NCBI RefSeq assembly: GCF_038003525.1
Contig: NZ_JBBOPI010000001.1
Location: forward strand, 1,541,001-1,605,000
Source: Solibacillus sp. FSL H8-0538
GTDB lineage: Bacteria; Bacillota; Bacilli; Bacillales_A; Planococcaceae
Direction: 5' to 3'
Length of the DNA stretch: 64,000 nt
The notes beneath the pieces were generated by a model that saw only the letters and a list, made by a program, of their open reading frames with translations, ran no database searches and was not told the origin of the DNA. Shown piece by piece: positions 9,127-54,640 of the stretch; the stretch's first letter is position 1; every line of letters starts with the position of its first letter. A program made the translations under genes and the position numbers.

Positions 9127-10419
9127 TTAACAATTAAAAAAGTCACTGTGGCGCAGGTTGTCAGCAGAGAGAGCAACTTGATCGAAGGATTGGCTTAGTT
9201 GGTCTATAACTTTGACGAAGTAGTTGAGTTCGTTTTCGATTTTGTTGTTTTGGTGTTTGGTTTCGCCAACTGTTTGTAAGATGTGTTTAAAATCATTTTC
9301 TGTTTCTTTTAGTTGGTCATTTCCTTTTGTTACTGCTATTGTAATGGTTTCGAGGGACTTTGTCAGGTTGCCTACTTGTGAATTTAAGGACGTGATTAAA
9401 GTCGATACATTGGTTACGGATTTTTTTGTTTCTTCGGAAAGCTTACGGACTTCTCTGGCTACAACAGCAAACCCTTTGCCTACTTCACCAGCACGAGCTG
9501 CTTCAATGGTTGCATTTAGTGATAATAAGTTCGTTTGGTCGGCGATAGTCGTAACGATACTGACAATTTCTTGCATTTGTTTTGATATAGAAAGTAATAC
9601 TTGTACATCCTTTGCTATCGTACAAACGGATTGATGGATATTTACCATATTCGTATTTTGATTGGTTAGTTGCTTTTTGCCATTTTCAGCGTATTGCTCT
9701 GAAAGGGTGGAAATTTCCGCACCCTCATTGGCAAGTGACATGACTTCATGTGATTGTGCTTGTAATTGTTGAAAAGAAGCATTCGTTTGTACAGAAATTG
9801 CTGCAAGTCTTTCCGAGGCTTTTGCAACATTTTGCCTCATTAACGTTTTCTCTTCTTCCCCTTGATTTCTGACGCGTTCACTTTCGGAATCATATGCTTC
9901 AAGAACTAGTTGCTGCTCTAGGTTTACTATTTTAGTCACAGCTCTTATGGCTAGAAAATATTCTTCTTTATCCTTCACATGCGCTTCAATAATATCCATT
10001 AGTGATAGGAGAAGGTCTTGAAAAGCGCACATATACCACTTCGTTTTGAGACCGATTTTAACATGAATACTGGCAATGCGAATTCTTTTTTCGAAAAAAG
10101 CTTGATCAATCACACCATCAAATAGCTCACTAATATGTTTAGAAAGAGTCTGGGTCAATCTAGAAATCGAGCTATTGTCATTAATAATTTTTAATAAGGA
10201 CGATTGGCTTTTTAAATTTTCATAAAATCTGTTCACGATTTGCTCTATTTGTTCATTCAAAAAGGGCTTTAAATTGCTAATGATACGAAGATCTTCTCTA
10301 GTTAGCCCAATCATTTGAACCTGTTTTTCTATATCTGAACCTTTAGAAATGGCCATTGTAACATTAGCTTGTTTAGTTAATACTTTTTCTATTGGTTTAT
10401 TAGTTTTTTTGGAAAACAT
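9127..10419 (-). CDS. hemAT: HemAT-like globin-coupled methyl-accepting chemotaxis protein
   Basis: About 430 residues from ATG 10419, with GGAG seven bases upstream; a GTG three codons earlier is possible. Residues about 25-185 form a sensor globin: the [16 protein letters not shown] segment carries the proximal haem histidine (H119) and matches the HemAT position. There is no membrane segment. A coiled linker leads to the C-terminal MCP signalling domain, with the hairpin tip motif recognisable around [16 protein letters not shown]. HemAT proteins bind oxygen and signal to CheA/CheW for aerotaxis. The start overlaps the end of the upstream EAL gene, so the oxygen sensor and c-di-GMP turnover are translationally coupled. 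Confidence 0.92.
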
Positions 10420-11785
10420 AATCGTCACTCCATGTTTCTTTCATTTGTTGAAAGAACTTTTTTTTCAAGTGATCAAACGAAATCGGTTTACTAAACAAAA
10501 ACCCTTGGATTGAATCGCATTTCATCTTTTTTAATAATTGGAGTTGTTTTTTTGTTTCAACACCTTCAGCGACAATATTTAAGTTCAGTTGATGACCGAG
10601 CGTTATAATCATTTTAACTATTTTTTGACTAGTCTTATCCATTTCTAAGTTTGATATAAAGCTGCGATCAATTTTTATTTCATCAATCTTTAAGTCTTTC
10701 AAATATTGTAAGGAAGAATAAGAAGTGCCAAAATCATCTATGGATAATTTTATGCCAGTTGCCCTAAGACGATTGACAATATCGATATTTTCTTGATGAA
10801 TAAGAAAGCGTTCAGTAACTTCTAAAGTAAGATTTCTCGGTTGGAAGGACATCCTTTCTAAAAGCTCTGCCACCATTTCGGGAAAACGAGGATTGTCAAA
10901 TTGTTGGGCAGAAATGTTAACCGAAAGGCTTAGGTCAGGCCAACCAGATTGATGTAACTTTTTCAATTTATAGATGGATTGAGTTAAAACCCATTTTTCT
11001 ATGTCAAGAATAAATCCTGTTTCCTCAGCAACGGGTAGAAAAGAGGCTGGTGACAATAATCCTAAATGAGGATGATCCCAACGAATAAGGGCTTCGACAC
11101 CTAGTAACTGTTCGTTTACACCAAAGTAGGGTTGATAATATACCTCAAATTCTTCACTTTCTAAGGCTGTATTTAATTCAGTAAGTACTTTTTCGTTTGT
11201 TTCGTTTAAACGTTTATCTATTTCAAATGAATAAAGGAGAGAATGATTACTATTATTTGTACTACTATTTGAAATCTCTATGGCCAAAGAGGCTAGTTTG
11301 CTATAAAAATCGACTGCATTCAACGTTTTTTCATCTGGTTTTCCTACTTCACTACTGTAAAGTGCGATTGTTCCTAATAATTCTTTTTTTGAAGAGAGAA
11401 GAGGTGTTGAAAAACAAGCACGAATTCCATGTACAATTGCACTATGCCGATACTTTTCCCAAAGAGGATTATTTTCAATATCTGATACGGTAACAGGTTG
11501 TTTTAAAAAGGCAGCAGTTCCACATGAACCTCCATAGGGGCTGACGTCTGCTGGTTCAATCGAGTTAATAAAGTTTGTAGGGAGAGAGGAACTCACCGTT
11601 TCTCCTAATTGCTTTAGTATGGGATTGTACAACATGATGGACCCATACAAACTAAAAGAATCGCAGGAATTTTCAATACTATTCACAATAAAAGTTAGTA
11701 TTTTTTTTAATTGCATACCAGATGAAATCATTTGGATAATGGTTGTTTGATTCTTAAATAAGGATTTCTGAACTGTAATCATCAT
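10400..11785 (-). CDS. GAF-EAL cyclic-di-GMP phosphodiesterase
   Basis: The 461-residue protein has an N-terminal GAF domain (about residues 15-165) and a C-terminal EAL domain (about 200-450). The EAL domain keeps the catalytic set: [49 protein letters not shown] and QGFLFSKP, so it should hydrolyse c-di-GMP. No GGDEF domain is present. The start is one of two adjacent ATG codons behind GAGGG. It is cytoplasmic by prediction, and its 3' end overlaps hemAT by about 20-30 bases. The divergent response regulator at 12045 shares the promoter region. The likely role is switching between motile and sessile states in response to a GAF ligand. Confidence 0.92.
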
Positions 11786-12044
11786 TTTTCCCTCTTTTCA
11801 AAAAAGTTATGGATGTGCTGAAATATTCTTATTTACTATTATTACAAGTAAAAATAATTATCACTATAAGGGAAACCCCTAAGTGTCATTTGAAAAAAAC
11901 CCTATATCGTACTAGGTCATCCCCTAAATTCATGGGGTATTCACCCTATCTTGTAAATATAATAGGAATTTCCTATGTTTATCCAATATTGACCATAATT
12001 ATGGTATAGTATTTTCATAGAACTCTAATTTAGGAGGTGCAAGT
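11786..12044. promoter_or_regulatory. Divergent regulatory region with AGGG/CCCT boxes
   Basis: Between the EAL gene and the response regulator lie AGGGAAACCCCT (11869-11880), a CCCC-N9-GGGG inverted repeat near 11921-11937, and the palindrome ATAGGAA-T-TTCCTAT (11962-11976). The first box is the complement-type match of AGGGGTTTTCCC boxes found upstream of the dead-kinase gene at 15.17-15.27 kb. A TATAGT at 12005-12010 may be the -10 of the response regulator promoter. No gene is convincing here. Confidence 0.5.
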
Positions 12045-12689
12045 ATGATTTCAGTATTACTTGCCGACGATCATGCCATTGTACGCTCGGGAATTAAACA
12101 TATGATTAATAGTCAAACGGACATGAAGGTAATAGATGAAGCAGAGAACGGAGAAGAAGTCGTTCATAAAGCATTAGAAAAAACCCCTGATGTAATCATC
12201 ATGGATTTAAATATGCCAAAGAAGAGCGGTCTTGTGGCAACAAAGCAAATTAATGAAGCTAATAATAAGGTGAAGATCATCGTTTTAACGATGCATGAAG
12301 GGAAGGAATATCTATTCCACGCATTGCAGGCAGGGGCTTCTAGCTACTTATTAAAAAGTTATCATGAAAATGATTTAATAGAAGCAATTCGGACAGTTTA
12401 CCGCGGAGAAGCTTACTTATATCCTAATGCTACAAAACTTTTATTAGAAGAATATATGAAAAAATCAGATGCCAATGAGAGTGATTTGCAAAAATTAACG
12501 GGCCGCGAACAAGAGGTATTATCTTATTTGGCTAAGGGTTATACCAATCGGGAAATAGGGGAGAAGTTGTTTCTTTCAGTAAAGACGATAGAATCCCATA
12601 AATCGAAAATTATGGATAAATTACAACTGAAAACACGTCCAGATTTAGTGAAATTTGCAGTAAAAAACGGCTATTTAGATTTTGATTAA
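12045..12689 (+). CDS. NarL/FixJ-family response regulator
   Basis: The 214-residue protein starts at ATG 12045 behind AGGAGGTG. The receiver domain (1-120) has the acidic pair DDH, the phosphoacceptor D54 in IIMDLNMPKKSG and the conserved K near residue 104. The C-terminal LuxR-type helix-turn-helix (about 150-214) reads LTGREQEVLSYLAKGYTNRE. It is followed 14 bases later by its sensor kinase, so the two form an operon. The likely DNA targets are the GGGG-TTTT-CCC-like boxes near its own gene and near 15.2 kb, which is inference from position. Confidence 0.93.
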   Translation: MISVLLADDHAIVRSGIKHMINSQTDMKVIDEAENGEEVVHKALEKTPDVIIMDLNMPKKSGLVATKQINEANNKVKIIVLTMHEGKEYLFHALQAGASSYLLKSYHENDLIEAIRTVYRGEAYLYPNATKLLLEEYMKKSDANESDLQKLTGREQEVLSYLAKGYTNREIGEKLFLSVKTIESHKSKIMDKLQLKTRPDLVKFAVKNGYLDFD

Positions 12690-12703
12690 GGGAGCACAAG
12701 AAG

Positions 12704-14230
12704 ATGGCAGCCTTAAAGAAACAGGAAATTCAATTTATATTTTTTGCAATCTTCGCATTACTTTTACTGTTCCGTTTTCAAATGGCACACACATCTATTA
12801 ATGTAGATAATCATTTTTTATCACTACATACATTGCTTGAGTTATTTAGTATATTTGTTTCTTTTTCTTTATTTGTACAGGCGTGGACAACTTACTCTAC
12901 CCATCGAATTAAATCACAATATTTTATTGGGTTAGTGTTTCTAGCAGTAGGTTGTTTTGATTTAGTTCATACTTTCACTTATAAGGGAATGCCCTTTATT
13001 AACGATGAGTTTTCTGCTACCCGTGCCACATGGTTTTGGATTGTAGCACGATTAATAGAAAGTATTGGCGTTGCTCTGTTTGTCTTTAGACCAAACCAAT
13101 TGCTATTTATTAACCGTGGTTGGGGTCTAAGTGTAACCGTCCTATTTGTGAGCATTTGTACAACGATTATTCTTACAATACCAGAGCGACTTCCCGTACT
13201 ACTTAATGAGCAAGGGGTTACAGGTCTTAAAGTTTCTCTTGAGTATGTAATAAGTACAACCATTTTTATTACATTTATTACTTTATTAACAAGATATATA
13301 AAAGAATTACGACCAAATACCGATTCGCTTCGTATGATTTTTGCCCTGTTTGTCATGATGGTAGGGGAGCTCTTTTTTACCCTTTATAATCATGTGTATG
13401 CGATTGAAAATTTATTGGGGCACTGTTTCAAATTTATTGGATACATTTATATTTATCGTGCTATCTATTTCCCTGAGATTCAGCAGATCTTAACTGACAA
13501 AGAAAATGCGGAAAAGCAACAAATGGAAGCAGAGCTGAAGTTATATGAGGCTGAAAAAAACTTATCCAGACAAGTGTTTGAAGCACATGAAGAGGAAAGA
13601 AAGCGTGTATCTAGAGAGTTACATGATAGTATCGGGCAATCCCTATTTAGTATTTTAGTTACTTTAAATACGGTAAATAAAGATCAATCAGTAGAAACGA
13701 ATGAAGATAGCCTACAAACTATAAAGAAGATGACACAAGAGGCAATGAAGGAAGTAAAAGAAATTGCACGTTCATTAAGGCCAAGTACATTAGATGATTT
13801 AGGGTTTATTCCAGCTGTGAGGTCCTATCTTGAATCATACAAACAGATTCATAATATCTCAGTTCAATTTGAAATAAAAGGGGTAGTAGGGAGGTTAGAG
13901 CCAGAAGCTGAAACAGCTCTCTATCGAATCTGTCAAGAAGCGCTAACTAACACAGCGAAATACGCGAAAGCAAGCGAAGTCTATGTATCTCTCAATATGG
14001 ATGAAGATTCAGTAGATTTGACAATTATAGATAATGGCATAGGATTTTGCATAGGGGATTATTTAAAAAACGCACAGCGAAAAGGTATTGGTTTATATAG
14101 TATAAAGGAGCGAGCAGAAGGGGTAGGTGGATCTGCACAGTTTCATTCTAAAGTAAATGAGGGAACGACGATCAAAATTTTTGTCCCGAGAAATGTGGAT
14201 GAAAAAGTTGATCATTCACTATTCCCTTAA
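12704..14230 (+). CDS. MASE3-domain sensor histidine kinase (HisKA_3 type)
   Basis: The 508-residue kinase has about seven N-terminal membrane helices (1-265) matching the MASE3 sensor domain, with motifs such as CFDLVHTFTYKGMPF and LGHCFKFIGYIYIYRA. After a coiled linker comes the HisKA_3 dimerisation domain with EEERKRVSRELHDSIGQ, phosphoacceptor H307, and an HATPase_c domain with QEALTNTAKYA (N box) and DNGIGF (G box). It should phosphorylate the response regulator encoded just upstream. The ligand of MASE3 domains is not established. A nearby minus-strand gene (14349) is a degenerate copy of this kinase's cytoplasmic half. Confidence 0.93.
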   Translation: MAALKKQEIQFIFFAIFALLLLFRFQMAHTSINVDNHFLSLHTLLELFSIFVSFSLFVQAWTTYSTHRIKSQYFIGLVFLAVGCFDLVHTFTYKGMPFINDEFSATRATWFWIVARLIESIGVALFVFRPNQLLFINRGWGLSVTVLFVSICTTIILTIPERLPVLLNEQGVTGLKVSLEYVISTTIFITFITLLTRYIKELRPNTDSLRMIFALFVMMVGELFFTLYNHVYAIENLLGHCFKFIGYIYIYRAIYFPEIQQILTDKENAEKQQMEAELKLYEAEKNLSRQVFEAHEEERKRVSRELHDSIGQSLFSILVTLNTVNKDQSVETNEDSLQTIKKMTQEAMKEVKEIARSLRPSTLDDLGFIPAVRSYLESYKQIHNISVQFEIKGVVGRLEPEAETALYRICQEALTNTAKYAKASEVYVSLNMDEDSVDLTIIDNGIGFCIGDYLKNAQRKGIGLYSIKERAEGVGGSAQFHSKVNEGTTIKIFVPRNVDEKVDHSLFP

Positions 14231-14241
14231 AACATTACTCT

Positions 14242-14291
14242 TTTGTAGAAGACATAGTTCTAAGTCTTCTACAAAGGAGTTTTTTGTTTTT
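14242..14291 (+). terminator. Rho-independent terminator
   Basis: Arms TTTGTAGAAGAC and GTCTTCTACAAA (14242-14253, 14264-14275) precede a T-rich run. It ends the regulator-kinase operon. Confidence 0.85.
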
Positions 14292-14348
14292 AATGGATAG
14301 GAAGTAACGCGGTTCTTTAAGTACGCGGCGATTTTTTGTTAGTGTTGT

Positions 14349-15089
14349 CTAATTTTTTGTTTGTAGAACCAGATTAAATTGACATTCATTTTGCTCTATA
14401 ATCTCAACGTCTTCTATACTGTCTACTAATTCTTTAAATAGTTGATATTTAGAAGAGTGGTTTAGTCGTTCTGCTAAAGCCTCTCCCTCAAATGTTAAAA
14501 CGATTCGACCATCCTTTTCATTAATAGAGACACTTAATGAGGCAACAGTATTAAGGTTGTCAATAATTTGAATCAAATGTTGAATGAATCGAAATATATT
14601 AATCTCTATTTTATGAGGCTGCCTTTTAAGCGTTCCTTTAAAGTCAATGTCGATCGTTATGTTATTTCCTTCTTTAAGTAGTTCATAGTAAGATTTAATT
14701 GCCCCGTAAGGCCCCAAATCTTGCATACATATTGGATATACACTAATCGAAGCTTCTTTCAACTGGTTTAATTGTCTTTCAATTTCTTTTTTAAGTGAAG
14801 CTAAATACTTTTTTGCAGAGTCTGATTGGGCTTCCTGGTCTAACGTACGGATTCCTAATAAAGTGCTATATAAAATTTGTTCTAGTGGATCCAATGTTTC
14901 TTGAGCCAATTGATACTTTTCATTTTCATGGAAATCCCAAATTCGATTAATCATATCATTTTTTTGTTTGAACAACTGTAGGAGTTCTTCATAGTCATCT
15001 AAGATTTTATTTGTTAATTCAGATTCATTTGCGCTGATTTTGGATCGATATTCTTGAATCAGTGGTTGAATGTCACCAATACGGTTCAT
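14349..15089 (-). CDS. Degenerate histidine-kinase-like protein (no catalytic residues)
   Basis: About 246 residues from ATG 15089 (GTG codons at 15092 and 15107 are also in frame; GGGTGGGAG lies upstream). It has no membrane part. Its sequence follows the cytoplasmic half of the adjacent MASE3 kinase in order: FHENEKYQLAQETLDPLEQ against AHEEERKRVSRELHDSIGQ, and VYPICMQDLGPYGAIKSYYE against LRPSTLDDLGFIPAVRSYLE. The phosphoacceptor histidine is replaced by leucine, the N-box asparagine is lost (QHLIQIIDNLNTVAS) and there is no DNGIGF box. So it can neither bind ATP in the normal way nor be phosphorylated there. The frame is intact with a good promoter, so it is probably a functional pseudokinase, perhaps an antagonist or scaffold for the kinase. 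That role is inference. Confidence 0.75.
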   Translation of the reverse strand: MNRIGDIQPLIQEYRSKISANESELTNKILDDYEELLQLFKQKNDMINRIWDFHENEKYQLAQETLDPLEQILYSTLLGIRTLDQEAQSDSAKKYLASLKKEIERQLNQLKEASISVYPICMQDLGPYGAIKSYYELLKEGNNITIDIDFKGTLKRQPHKIEINIFRFIQHLIQIIDNLNTVASLSVSINEKDGRIVLTFEGEALAERLNHSSKYQLFKELVDSIEDVEIIEQNECQFNLVLQTKN

Positions 15090-15147
15090 CACTATGTACA
15101 CTCCCACCCGTCATGTTATTTTCATTTCACGTTAACATTATCTCGCA

Positions 15148-15198
15148 ATTATATAGCGATAATCTATAGGGGTTTTCCCTATACTTTGGGAAAAACCC
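15148..15198 (-). promoter_or_regulatory. Promoter and box motifs of the pseudokinase gene
   Basis: On the minus strand a TATAAT -10 (bases 15148-15153) lies 14 bases from an AGGGGTTTTCCCT box (15168-15180), so the box covers the -35 position. A second box GGGAAAAACCC (15188-15198) forms an inverted repeat with the first. A third copy AGGGGTTTTCCC is at 15263-15274. Placement over the -35 suggests direct control by a regulator. Confidence 0.55.
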
Positions 15199-15277
15199 TT
15201 CATATTAATACTATTTTGTAAAAGTTCCTAGTGAGATTCCGGGGTTTTTATTAGTAATTGGTAGGGGTTTTCCCGAT

Positions 15278-15508
15278 AGTGAGATTCTTTCTCCGATTGC
15301 TGGGATCCACAATATGTATAATACCGTGATGGCCTTTTGTACTGCTAAACTGATAGGTCTGAATCAGGATGCCATTATTGCGTCCATTTATGATTTTAAA
15401 GGGGTGAAAGGCAGATTTGAAATTTCGAAGCTGCCAAATGGTGCGACAGTTGTGATTGATTACGCACATACTGCCGATGCCTTCAATTTTATAAATTGCT
15501 CGAATTAA
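15278..15508 (+). pseudogene. MurE-type Mur ligase fragment
   Basis: An open stretch reads EILSPIAGIHNMYNTVMAFC and later GVKGRFEISKLPNGATVVID and YAHTADAF. This matches the part of UDP-MurNAc-tripeptide synthetases spanning the end of the central domain and the start of the C-terminal domain (GRFE...DYAHTPDAL). Everything before and after is missing, so it is a gene scrap of about 75 codons. MurE is essential, so an intact copy must exist elsewhere; this fragment is from a duplicate or a foreign copy. Confidence 0.7.
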
Positions 15509-45260: not shown

Positions 45261-45884
45261 CTAATGAATCCAACCTAAATCTTTCGCCTTCAACACAGCT
45301 TCTGCACGTGATTCTACATTGAGTCGAACGAAAATTTTCGACAAATAATTTTCAATGGTACGTTGGGTAACAGAAAATTCAAGTGCAATTGCTTTATTCG
45401 TACAACCTCGTGCTACGAGCTGTAAAATCTCTTGCTCTTTTTCACTTATAGCAAGTTCAGTAGAGGACATTGGACACTGGTGTTTTCGATAGATGAAATC
45501 CAAAAAATCAGCTGGTAGCAGTAATTCACCTCTTAATGTGGCACTAATTGTTTGAATCACTTGTTCTTTCGTAGCCGTTTTCGATAACAGCCCATCAACT
45601 TTTCGTTCAATTAATAAGTCATAATAATCGGCTAGGTCGTAGCCTGTATATAAGATAGTGAGTGCCTCAGGATGCAGGTGTTTAATTTTTTGTGCTAACT
45701 CGATGCCATTAATTGGCTGCATATTAATATCGAGCAAAAATAATTGGAATGTCGTGTCGTTCATTCTTTGTAACACAGCGGAAGGTTCATGTTCGATTTC
45801 AATATGCCATTGATCAATATGTTGAAGTAATGCCTTTGTGCCGTTTAATACAACGGGATGGTCATCTACAATTAATAGATTCAT
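45261..45884 (-). CDS. ComA-like NarL-family response regulator
   Basis: About 207 residues from ATG 45884 (GGTGA five bases upstream); GTG 45893 is an alternative. The receiver has VDDHP, phosphoacceptor Asp in LFLLDINMQPINGIEL and the Lys in LLSKTATKE. The C-terminal LuxR HTH reads SEKEQEILQLVARGCTNKAI. Motifs DDHPVVLNGTK, YTGYDLADYYD and SKTATKE closely echo ComA of Bacillus subtilis. It overlaps the 3' end of its kinase gene, so they are cotranscribed. Confidence 0.88.
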   Translation of the reverse strand: MNLLIVDDHPVVLNGTKALLQHIDQWHIEIEHEPSAVLQRMNDTTFQLFLLDINMQPINGIELAQKIKHLHPEALTILYTGYDLADYYDLLIERKVDGLLSKTATKEQVIQTISATLRGELLLPADFLDFIYRKHQCPMSSTELAISEKEQEILQLVARGCTNKAIALEFSVTQRTIENYLSKIFVRLNVESRAEAVLKAKDLGWIH

Positions 45885-48114
45885 CCGTTTCACCGCTTTC
45901 TTCGATTATTGTAATCGTCATTTTTAAACCATTGGCTTCTTTCGTATCAATGGTCATCTTGCCATTAAATGCTCGTACTCGTTCAAACATTCCCTTGAGG
46001 CCCATCGAATCTGTTGTAGTTAGTTCATTCATTTCAAAGCCAATCCCGTTATCTTCATAATGTATTTCAAAACCATGTGGAATCGATAACAGTTGTAATG
46101 ACACAACGGATGCTTCTGAATGTTTGAGCGCATTGTTCAGCAGTTCTTGAACAAGACGGTAAATCATTAACGGATAGGCAGGATCTGTTACCGTTAGTTC
46201 CTCGATGGTTTCATGTAGCATGAAATTTGAACGCATTTTCACCTTTTGCATTAATTTTTTGAGTGCTGCCTGTAAGCCGAGTGTATCGAGTAAGGGGGGA
46301 TTCAGATTTTCACAATACTCTCGTAATTGGTACGAAATATCGAGTAATTGATCACGAATCGGTTCGATCTTTGAAACAGTTGCTTCATTCATTTGGACAT
46401 CTAGCTCGCGTGCAAGATACAGTTGCTCTTGTAAAACCGTATCATGTAATTCTTGTGCAAGAATGACCTTCTCTTTCTCAACAAATTGCCACACTAATTT
46501 ATCCAACCAAGGAATCGATTCAGTATGAGATGCTTGGAGGTCCTTCATTTCTTTGACTAGCTCTTCAATTCGTTTAAAGTTATGTAAAAAAGCATCGCAG
46601 TACACCGTAATAAGTTCTAACCAAATAATTTCTTCTTCCTTTAGCTGAATCGACCGTGTGGGAGAACCGATAGATAAAATAAATTGTTTGCTAGGATTAC
46701 TATGTAGCAACAAGGAATAATGCGATGATTTTTTTTTAACTTCAGCCAGTTTCATCGGTTTCTGGTCTATAGGCAGAATATTGATGGAAACTGTATCGAA
46801 TGCTAGTTTTTGTTTCACTTCTTGTTGCAGTAGATCCAGCATTTGATCCTGACAAACGGCTTGTCCGATTCTTTGAACAACCGAATACACACCATGAATC
46901 GAATCTCCATGTGTCGTAAATAATATTTTGCGCTGACGAAAATCTATTTTTTCCTTGATATAAAGCAAAATGAAAATGGCAACAGCACTTAACAGAAACA
47001 GTACTATCGCTTTTTCTACTGTAAATTCATCACGCCAAACGAATGAAATAATTACTGACAAAACAAATGCCGTTAATAGGGAGAGAAGTCCATAATAACG
47101 AATGCGACTAAGATGATAGTGTAAACCGAATAGCCGCTCTGTTAGCTGTGTGAAAATAAAACTAAACGGAATGAACAGTAAAAATAACGAGCTAATATCA
47201 GAGGATAGGATCGGCTTTTGAAATAGTATTTCTGGTAGCACAAATAGCAACACAAACGGTAAAAATGGCACAACAACGCATATCAATAAAATTTTTAGTT
47301 GCAACACTCTTGAACGAAAATAGCCCTGGAGTAATACCCCTAGCACAATGAACAGTAACACAGTAAACAAAGAAAGTGTCAGCCAAGAAAGCGCAGAATC
47401 GAGCGCAGGCGAGTATAGACCGATTATACCAACGATTAACATCAATATGGGCAGTGCATACAGTATGTTCATATTGCGCGTAAAGGACCATTTTAACTGC
47501 TGATAAGTGAAATAATTTTTTAAAAAATGAATGAGAATTACGAGACAAAGAATCATAGTACTTTGAATAATAATTCCTGCGAATGCATTGCCTCGACTTG
47601 ATGCCCCTGCGCTAATATAAGCAATAGACATGACAAGTAAAAATAAAATTAACAGATTCAGTAGTGCATTATTGTTTTTGAAACAATACAGATAAATTGC
47701 TGTCCATAATGTAATCAAAAAATATATGCTTGGCACAATCTCATGCATATAAAATTGATGCGGGAGATCGGCGTGGCGCACTTGAATGTCCCGAATTTTT
47801 CCGTTTTCTTGTGCAATTGTAATTGTGTTAGCTGAATAGACGGCAGATTTGTTCGTAATATGGTCCAGAGTTTCAATTGGCTCACCGTTAATTTGTAGAA
47901 TTTGATCTCCAAAAGCAATTCTCTGCGTTGCTCCCCAGTCTGTAAAATACGTTGATTCGACTAACCACTTCCCATTTTCTTCTTTCAATATAATCGGTGA
48001 AAACGGCTGTAAAAATGAAATCGCCAGGACATAAATTCCTATAACTATATACAGTAGTAACGTAATGCCAAACCAATAGATTGAGATGGCATGGTAAATG
48101 CGTTGTTTAATCAA
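45862..48114 (-). CDS. ComP-like sensor histidine kinase
   Basis: The 750-residue kinase starts at TTG 48114 (AAAAGG upstream). The N-terminus has one membrane helix, then a PDZ-like outer loop (about 35-115, with FGDQILQINGEPIETLD), then seven or more helices to about residue 390. This is the layout of ComP, the pheromone receptor. The cytoplasmic part includes a GAF-like region and a HisKA_3 domain with EKVILAQELHDTVLQEQ (H557), a HATPase N box ELLNNALKHSEAS and a G box EDNGIGF. ComP senses the isoprenylated peptide ComX. No ComX or ComQ gene is seen beside it, so the ligand is open. Confidence 0.88.
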   Translation of the reverse strand: MIKQRIYHAISIYWFGITLLLYIVIGIYVLAISFLQPFSPIILKEENGKWLVESTYFTDWGATQRIAFGDQILQINGEPIETLDHITNKSAVYSANTITIAQENGKIRDIQVRHADLPHQFYMHEIVPSIYFLITLWTAIYLYCFKNNNALLNLLILFLLVMSIAYISAGASSRGNAFAGIIIQSTMILCLVILIHFLKNYFTYQQLKWSFTRNMNILYALPILMLIVGIIGLYSPALDSALSWLTLSLFTVLLFIVLGVLLQGYFRSRVLQLKILLICVVVPFLPFVLLFVLPEILFQKPILSSDISSLFLLFIPFSFIFTQLTERLFGLHYHLSRIRYYGLLSLLTAFVLSVIISFVWRDEFTVEKAIVLFLLSAVAIFILLYIKEKIDFRQRKILFTTHGDSIHGVYSVVQRIGQAVCQDQMLDLLQQEVKQKLAFDTVSINILPIDQKPMKLAEVKKKSSHYSLLLHSNPSKQFILSIGSPTRSIQLKEEEIIWLELITVYCDAFLHNFKRIEELVKEMKDLQASHTESIPWLDKLVWQFVEKEKVILAQELHDTVLQEQLYLARELDVQMNEATVSKIEPIRDQLLDISYQLREYCENLNPPLLDTLGLQAALKKLMQKVKMRSNFMLHETIEELTVTDPAYPLMIYRLVQELLNNALKHSEASVVSLQLLSIPHGFEIHYEDNGIGFEMNELTTTDSMGLKGMFERVRAFNGKMTIDTKEANGLKMTITIIEESGETDESINCR

Positions 48115-54109: not shown

Positions 54110-54640
54110 TTACTCGTTTTCAGTGTGAGTAGTTAGTAATTCAGTAAACCTCTTATGCATCACATTCGCGGCGTTTTCACGCATACCTTCAGTTACATGC
54201 AAGTAGATTTTTGTGGTTGTAGCAGAATTTCTATGACCTACACGGTTCATAATATATTGGAGATCCACACCAGCTTCAGCAAGTAGGCTTATGTGCGTGT
54301 GACGCAATATATATGTGTAGAATCTTTTCTTAATCTCCGTTTTCTTTCCACGCTGTCGAATATATTGATTTAGTGTTTTTACAGTAGGGGGTATCCCTTC
54401 AACATCACTAAATAAAAATTCGGACTTTATCCAATCCTTATTCTTCTTGAACTCCAGTAAATACTTTATTTTCTCCACGACAATCTCATCGATATCGATA
54501 GTACGAATCGCGTTATATGTTTTTGGTGATGTTAATTCGAAATCACCTTTAATACTGTCTTTTGCATAAACCGTTTTAGTGATGTGGATTACTTTTCGTT
54601 TTAAATCAACATCTTTATGTTTAAGTGCCATTGCTTCACC
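54110..54640 (-). pseudogene. Tyrosine integrase, 5'-truncated by IS66
   Basis: The frame begins inside the IS66 end and reads GEAMALKHKDVDLKRK, which in intact integrases directly follows the first catalytic arginine (TGLRxGEA). The catalytic remainder is present: LRHTHISLLAEAG (HxxR region), VGHRNSATTTKIYLHV (His and catalytic Tyr). The N-terminal binding domains and the first Arg are lost, so it is inactive. It is a phage- or ICE-type integrase, evidence of a former mobile element here. Confidence 0.85.

Follow-up and report, generated by a model that had tools for sequence, protein, structure and literature searches.

The window, a 64,000-nucleotide stretch of the genome of Solibacillus sp. 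FSL H8-0538, encodes beside a MASE3 sensor kinase and its NarL-type response regulator a soluble HisKA_3-type pseudokinase, which is possibly a phosphatase-only derivative of such kinases, induced by the response regulator and closing a negative feedback loop (probability about 0.45). The earlier note had proposed, from the letters of the window, a soluble pseudokinase tied to a MASE3/NarL pair, and such a protein is real, under selection and located beside the pair in all six genomes carrying it. Mixed dimers, sequestration of the regulator and ligand binding stood side by side in that note. Regulator-induced phosphatase is favoured here as the more specific reading, since the DxxxQ motif of HisKA_3 phosphatases is retained and an operator-like palindrome precedes the gene. 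The coordinates are listed in Table 1.

Table 1. Features in and around the pseudokinase block; positions are those of the window unless a locus is named.
Feature	Position	Strand	Remarks
Protoglobin chemoreceptor beside the block	9127..10428	-	adjoins EAL gene
GAF-EAL protein, c-di-GMP phosphodiesterase type, divergent from regulator gene	10400..11785	-	conserved in block
AATAAT within TTGTAATAAT, probable -10 of EAL gene	11838..11843	-	invariant in 6/6 genomes
TAGGGGTTTCCCTTA (TAAGGGAAACCCCTA on +), same putative operator, centre about -43 of EAL gene (hand count)	11867..11881	-	
NarL/LuxR-type response regulator, 5′ of kinase gene	12045..12689	+	
MASE3 - HisKA_3 - HATPase_c sensor kinase, catalytic residues intact (HDSIGQ)	12704..14230	+	
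Soluble HisKA_3-type pseudokinase, 246 aa	14349..15089	-	long N-terminal helix, DHp helices, degenerate ATP domain
Codons L66-D-P-L-E-Q71: Leu at phosphoacceptor His, DxxxQ phosphatase motif retained	14877..14894	-	invariant in 6/6 copies
GATAAT, probable -10 of pseudokinase promoter	15137..15142	-	invariant, palindrome spacing fixed, 6/6 genomes
Palindrome TAGGGAAAACCCCTA, putative response-regulator operator, centre about -44 of pseudokinase gene (hand count)	15167..15181	-	
Second operator-like copy TCGGGAAAACCCCTA, at edge of shared block	15262..15276	-	95 bases upstream of first
Second-lineage soluble HisKA_3 protein	L169:543-1247 (= L161:2543-3247); L170:716-1423 (= L162:2716-3423)	-	

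The pseudokinase frame is open and uninterrupted. An in-frame GTG is located one codon 5′ of its ATG (15090-15092) in all six genomes, and the copy in genome G262 has ACG at the ATG position, so the true start may be the upstream GTG. By BLASTP, the pseudokinase was 25% identical to the neighbouring kinase over 163 aa (E = 1e-17; kinase residues 278-440), leaving the final third of the kinase ATP domain unaligned. The Pfam models HisKA_3 and HATPase_c gave no match to the pseudokinase up to E = 1, and the top curated model in NCBIfam was the sensor kinase MctS, with an E-value of 2.9e-8 that is far under the model cut-off.

Two of 58 proteins gathered (708 aa in L006 and 405 aa in L072) were left out ahead of the kinase alignment. 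An alignment of 56 rows consisted of the 6 pseudokinase copies and 50 kinase pieces. Leu66 takes the phosphoacceptor position in each of the six copies, where active HisKA_3 kinases have His and the Tyr of DivL is likewise absent. At the ATP site, the E/N of the N-box is changed to H/I, the D/G/G/F of the D-box to G/A/A/E and the Gly of the G2-box to Q. The His and the N-, D- and G2-box residues, invariant in the 50 compared kinases, are thus lost in 6/6 copies, which confirms the statement of the earlier note that Leu replaces the phosphoacceptor His and that the N and G boxes are gone. D67 and Q71 (DxxxQ) are invariant in the six copies as well as in 50/50 kinases. Among 34 positions conserved to at least 90% in 52 kinases, 11 were retained in five or six of the pseudokinase copies: D67, Q71, E55, P119, D124, G126, R156, E162, R167 and Q170 in all six and E57 in five. 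Only D67, Q71, P119, R167 and Q170 were invariant across the whole alignment. Given 11 retained positions out of 34, the chance of both D67 and Q71 surviving is about 1 in 10.

The maximum likelihood tree placed the pseudokinase on a long branch, away from the neighbouring kinase. Trees in which it is a duplicate of the neighbour were not rejected by AU tests (p 0.07-0.20). With all columns included, p was 0.136 for the pseudokinase grouped with nine MASE3 kinases and 0.079 for the pseudokinase as sister of the six neighbour kinases; without the ten lost columns the corresponding values were 0.20 and 0.073. By bp-RELL and c-ELW, the tree with the pseudokinase as sister of the six was excluded for both column sets.

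An AlphaFold2 model based on the 56-row alignment reached a pLDDT of 87 and a pTM of 0.77. With the six copies only, the pLDDT was 55, the modelled fold thus being imposed in part by the kinase rows. The earlier note had made its proposal depend on a HisKA_3-HATPase fold; the predicted structure does resemble HisKA_3 kinases, kinase rows being part of its alignment. The best PDB matches found by VIA-align were the VraS ATP domain (Z 13.2; 126 residues, rmsd 2.6), DosS (Z 12.6) and DesKC (Z about 11-12). The degenerate ATP domain also resembled Spo0B, in 1f51_A (presumably Spo0B with Spo0F; Z 10.7, 113 residues, rmsd 3.3) and in 1ixm_B (Z 9.8), middling values that are common to many kinases. 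Whole-chain Foldseek superpositions were poor, with query TM of 0.22-0.43 among the 50 matches listed. In the model, residues 23-86 form a single helix leading into DHp helix 1, and its hydrophobic positions L30, Y33, L37, F40, I47 and W51 are invariant in the pseudokinase copies.

Among 261 family genomes, counting that of the window, six had an intact pseudokinase gene. The earlier note had staked its proposal on intact homologues elsewhere; five others exist, 75-89% identical, the six being spread over four genera and none carrying a stop or a frameshift. A MASE3 kinase of at least 84% identity (N-terminal 292 residues) was found in exactly the same six of the 261 genomes. All six pseudokinase genes adjoin this kinase and the same NarL-type regulator, in a layout where the regulator-kinase pair sits between the EAL gene and the pseudokinase gene, on the opposite strand to both. 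The next-closest kinases (45-48%), in genomes G245, G203 and G205, also belong to a regulator-kinase pair, and no pseudokinase was found within the 16-19 kb around it. In a profile search of these genomes and of 398 genomes of the class, the six copies scored 479-512 bits; next came the neighbouring kinase with 69.7 bits and, at another locus, a kinase with 67.6 bits. No further copy was revealed, at most 10 or 6 first-look candidates per genome being scored. The family and class sets overlap and each includes the window's own genome, and the set searched at the level of the order was the same 261 genomes. A widespread pseudokinase family was not detected in the 261 family and 398 class genomes.

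Pairwise dN/dS of the pseudokinase was 0.21-0.49 over 15 pairs, with dS up to 0.90, and that of the neighbouring kinase 0.11-0.30. In the block of genome G192, a truncated EAL gene of 183 codons (L071:11912-12463 (+)) accompanies an intact pseudokinase gene, and this EAL frame was excluded from the dN/dS calculations. The block common to the window and genomes G181 and G182 extends from 10427 to 15264 with 91-92% identity, and its flanks are unmatched. Between the window and these two genomes, dS was 0.09-0.21 in all four block genes and 0.73-0.77 in the rpoB core. For G192 against G181 and G182, the pseudokinase dS (0.46-0.50) was higher than that of rpoB (0.28-0.29). From block dS values far below those of rpoB, and from the G192 pattern, the block, pseudokinase included, has most likely been transferred between genera as a unit. 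Searches of plasmid and phage sequences gave no match at E 1e-5. Just past the edge of the transferred block, an open fragment (15254-15505 (+)) is similar to the start of the Mur ligase C-terminal domain (E = 0.0015, under the Pfam cut-off) and looks like a remnant. The genome G262 displayed two different rpoB genes (L153 and L160; frames of 1186 and 1413 codons; dS 0.41), which represent either a mixed assembly or a real second copy.

The promoter called good in the earlier note holds up in part: an invariant -10-like GATAAT and a palindrome near -35 are present, but a consensus scan found no consensus sigma-70 promoter 5′ of the pseudokinase gene. The aligned upstream regions contained TAGGG-N5-CCCTA in five of the six pseudokinase promoters and TAGGG-N5-CCTTA in G192, and a close variant of the palindrome was found in the EAL/regulator intergenic region of all six genomes. 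The distance from palindrome centre to last -10 base was 37 nt in the pseudokinase promoters (GATAAT) and 36 nt in the EAL promoters (AATAAT), in 6/6 genomes each. The hexamers were our own choice, and with the -10 taken as -12 to -7 the two centres fall at about -44 and -43, which is the position of an activator.

With one mismatch allowed, the window's genome contained 12 matches to TAGGGRWWWNCCCTA, of which 3 fell in the block and 1, in the pseudokinase promoter, was exact; the reversed pattern had 16. A 15-letter pattern over the twelve sites matched 15 times in the six genomes, namely at the 12 sites (by construction) and at 3 others, against 1 match for the reversed control; in nine other genomes the counts were 8 and 9, respectively. 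The sole match in G205 and one of three in G245 were located 5′ of the first gene of the regulator-kinase operon, which encodes an EAL protein or a chemoreceptor; there was no match in G203. By weight matrix these G245 and G205 sites scored 15.2 and a G203 site 10.5, each the top score in its own 16-19 kb; the background at scores of at least 15 is 1.25 per Mb, and 10.5 is by itself unremarkable. In G245, G203 and G205 exactly 23 nt separate the palindrome from the hexamer (GATAAT, CATAAT and GATAAT), the same distance as in the EAL promoters. All three relatives with the kinase pair and without the pseudokinase hence have the palindrome at the 36-nt spacing, which ties it to the regulator in the absence of the pseudokinase as well. 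Other weight-matrix sites in the window were inside the kinase gene (14.4, at 12982) and at 54385 (11.7). Membership of the pseudokinase gene in the regulon of the neighbouring NarL-type regulator, via the putative operator, is well supported by these comparisons of sequence. The operator of staphylococcal NreC is TAGGG-N4-CCCTA, and a link between it and the block palindrome is a lead. In the part of PMC8139620 available, the NreC site is described only as a "GC rich palindromic region".

The proposed circuit may be depicted as follows: The MASE3 kinase would phosphorylate the NarL-type regulator, which in its phosphorylated form would bind TAGGG-N5-CCCTA at about -43/-44 and activate two genes, that of the EAL protein for the output and that of the pseudokinase for the feedback. 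Binding of that palindrome by the regulator, and activation upon binding, are inferred. A pseudokinase dimer would grip the phosphorylated regulator via its DHp helices, and Asp67 and Gln71 would position the water that strips the phosphate from it. Having neither His nor an ATP site, the pseudokinase would itself phosphorylate nothing, and its build-up would make the response self-limiting.

The putative phosphatase activity is suggested by the motif and by analogy with DesK-H188V. According to the available parts of the cited papers, DesK-H188V is a normal phosphatase, both in vitro and in vivo, and is locked in the phosphatase state, in which the His is buried; Gln193 of DesK positions the water, and the His is non-essential for the phosphatase activity of NarX (PMC5231405). 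DesK mutations that stabilise the N-terminal coiled coil are reported to be phosphatase-constitutive (PMC5231405). Against the phosphatase reading, the ATP domains of DesK are reported to contact the regulator as well (PMC5231405). The DxxxQ motif is described as required for NarX phosphatase activity and as highly conserved in HisKA_3 (PMC3510030), and a chrS-Q191A strain as phosphatase-deficient (PMC9491836). The pseudokinase shares with DesK, NarX, LiaS and VraS the homology of DHp and ATP domains, the DxxxQ motif and an N-terminal helix leading into DHp helix 1. Unlike DesK-type kinases it is soluble and lacks the His, the ATP boxes and a sensor domain. It resembles the laboratory variant DesK-H188V in the His position only, and since the ATP domain of that variant still works, it is no test of an ATP-dead phosphatase.

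The literature matches on such pseudokinases included DivL, a laboratory variant of ChrS, FasBCAX and reviews; among the matches listed (titles and abstract starts, open-licence literature) none was a soluble, regulator-controlled, His-less HisKA_3 protein. No paper on MASE3 together with "histidine kinase" was found in the open-licence library searched, and the one paper listed for MASE3 was unrelated. The ChrS pseudokinase of Corynebacterium glutamicum is likewise kinase-dead and works with a paralogous kinase, but it arose by a laboratory frameshift in the ATP domain, has its own His, raises the output and is described as phosphatase-defective; natural ChrS pseudokinases have not been described in corynebacteria according to the authors (PMC9491836, in part). 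DivL is a repurposed kinase core without phosphoacceptor His as well, but has Tyr at that position and PAS domains, reads DivK~P, acts on CckA and is reported to lack phosphatase activity (PMC4211667, in part). In the FasC/FasB and RetS/GacS pairs a non-standard kinase also partners a sensor kinase, but FasB and FasC are membrane proteins, and FasC has a likely phosphorylated His and a dispensable kinase domain (PMC12675982, in part).

With D67 and Q71 kept in 6/6 copies while the His and the N, D and G boxes are lost, the sequence pattern supports a phosphatase. This is weakened by the chance of about 1 in 10 that D and Q persisted by luck, and by the two kinase-dead proteins above, of which the His-less DivL was tested and found not to be a phosphatase (PMC4211667) and the frameshifted ChrS is described as having lost its phosphatase function (PMC9491836). 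Both proteins also favour a non-catalytic receiver-binding protein, a sink or a DivL-like reader of the phosphorylated regulator without hydrolysis. DivL acts neither as a kinase nor as a phosphatase, and its presence increases the stability of DivK~P (PMC4211667). In addition, the DHp helices that contact the receiver are kept in the pseudokinase. However, DivL has Tyr at the His position, whereas here no copy has lost the D or the Q of the HisKA_3 phosphatase motif, and we consider such a sink or reader quite improbable. The main rival, which we hold to be unlikely on balance, is a mixed dimer in which the pseudokinase docks through its DHp helices onto the MASE3 kinase and makes this kinase less or more active, a mechanism also suggested for RetS-GacS, FasB-FasC and ChrS-HrrS. 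The pseudokinase is of the DHp class of its would-be partner and always its neighbour, and precedents are described in FasB-FasC, with FasC a proposed pseudokinase (PMC12675982), and in the ChrS-HrrS heterodimers and the laboratory-evolved ChrS pseudokinase (PMC9491836). The identity to the kinase is, however, a mere 25%, the ChrS interaction was seen with the native protein and was absent with the truncated pseudokinase (PMC9491836), and a mixed dimer alone leaves the invariant D and Q unexplained. The identity of the DHp helices to those of the neighbouring kinase was no higher than to other HisKA_3 kinases, so regulator specificity is unreadable from the sequence, which again counts against the phosphatase reading.

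Two further explanations have next to no probability. A phosphate relay protein of kinase fold could be envisaged from the resemblance in fold between the degenerate ATP domain and Spo0B, which is a His phosphotransferase, and from the His retained in the second-lineage homologue described below. Leu at the phosphorylated position in 6/6 copies sets the pseudokinase apart from Spo0B, and a Spo0B-like relay is excluded for the window protein by the missing His. The lost kinase residues might also be read as those of a decaying gene or of a chance ORF. The earlier note had held that the frame is not in simple decay, and dN/dS values of 0.2-0.5 and the transfer of the whole block between genera, kinase pair included, argue against it; together with six intact frames in four genera and a conserved promoter they refute a pseudogene or chance ORF.

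The class search also matched two short open frames of 242 and 246 codons in G348 and G308, which belong to another family and are the only 2 of its 11 genomes with this soluble homologue. The gene order in both is MASE3 kinase, chemoreceptor, NarL-type regulator, soluble HisKA_3 protein and HD-domain protein, with domains checked by Pfam in G348 and for the soluble protein of G308. The NarL-type regulator of G348 is 57% identical to that of the window. In the second-lineage protein (HNGVGQ), His and Gln persist and Asp is replaced by Asn; the Asn of the N-box and the Asp of the D-box are missing. With 22/34 conserved positions kept, it is less degraded than the window protein. NarX is reported to need both Asp and Gln (PMC3510030, in part), and the Asn thus weakens the phosphatase reading. 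In 2/2 genomes the palindrome precedes the gene with a score of 20.0 and a 23-nt gap to CATACT, which fits the -10 consensus in 4/6 bases, and scores of at least 20 were absent from 8 Mb of simulated sequence. At the cut-offs used, 11 genomes (6 + 3 + 2) had the short MASE3 kinase and 8/11 a degenerate soluble homologue in the block. In a tree including the second lineage, the two kinds of pseudokinase did not group, and their branches were long.

These observations tentatively point to a class of natural His-less or ATP-dead, phosphatase-only HisKA_3 derivatives, each induced by a NarL-type regulator against itself, in transferable modules of MASE3 kinase, c-di-GMP phosphodiesterase and chemoreceptor, although the existence of such a class is doubtful. 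Two lineages would then have arrived at one circuit through different losses: in the first, Leu has replaced His and both D and Q persist, and in the second, Asn has replaced Asp beside a retained His and Gln. Many sensor kinases combine kinase and phosphatase in one protein, and the balance is hard to separate. If true, a regulator-induced phosphatase would show two-component systems splitting both activities and gaining a feedback brake. It would also lend itself readily to tests of what the His and the ATP domain contribute to phosphatase catalysis, which is disputed. The block links the circuit to c-di-GMP enzymes of EAL and HD type and to chemoreceptors, and offers a candidate operator for the MASE3/NarL system.

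The protoglobin chemoreceptor beside the block hints at oxygen or redox sensing, and among the five other 18-kb stretches a homologue (83% identical) was located beside the block in G262 only. In G018 and G262, dCache chemoreceptor genes (657 and 658 aa; L070:5665-7638 (-) and L072:6220-8196 (-)) adjoin the pseudokinase gene and point away from it. The window also contains a further two-component pair (45261-48114 (-)), composed of a NarL-type regulator and a kinase of 750 aa that has the motif HDTVLQ and matches PDZ weakly.
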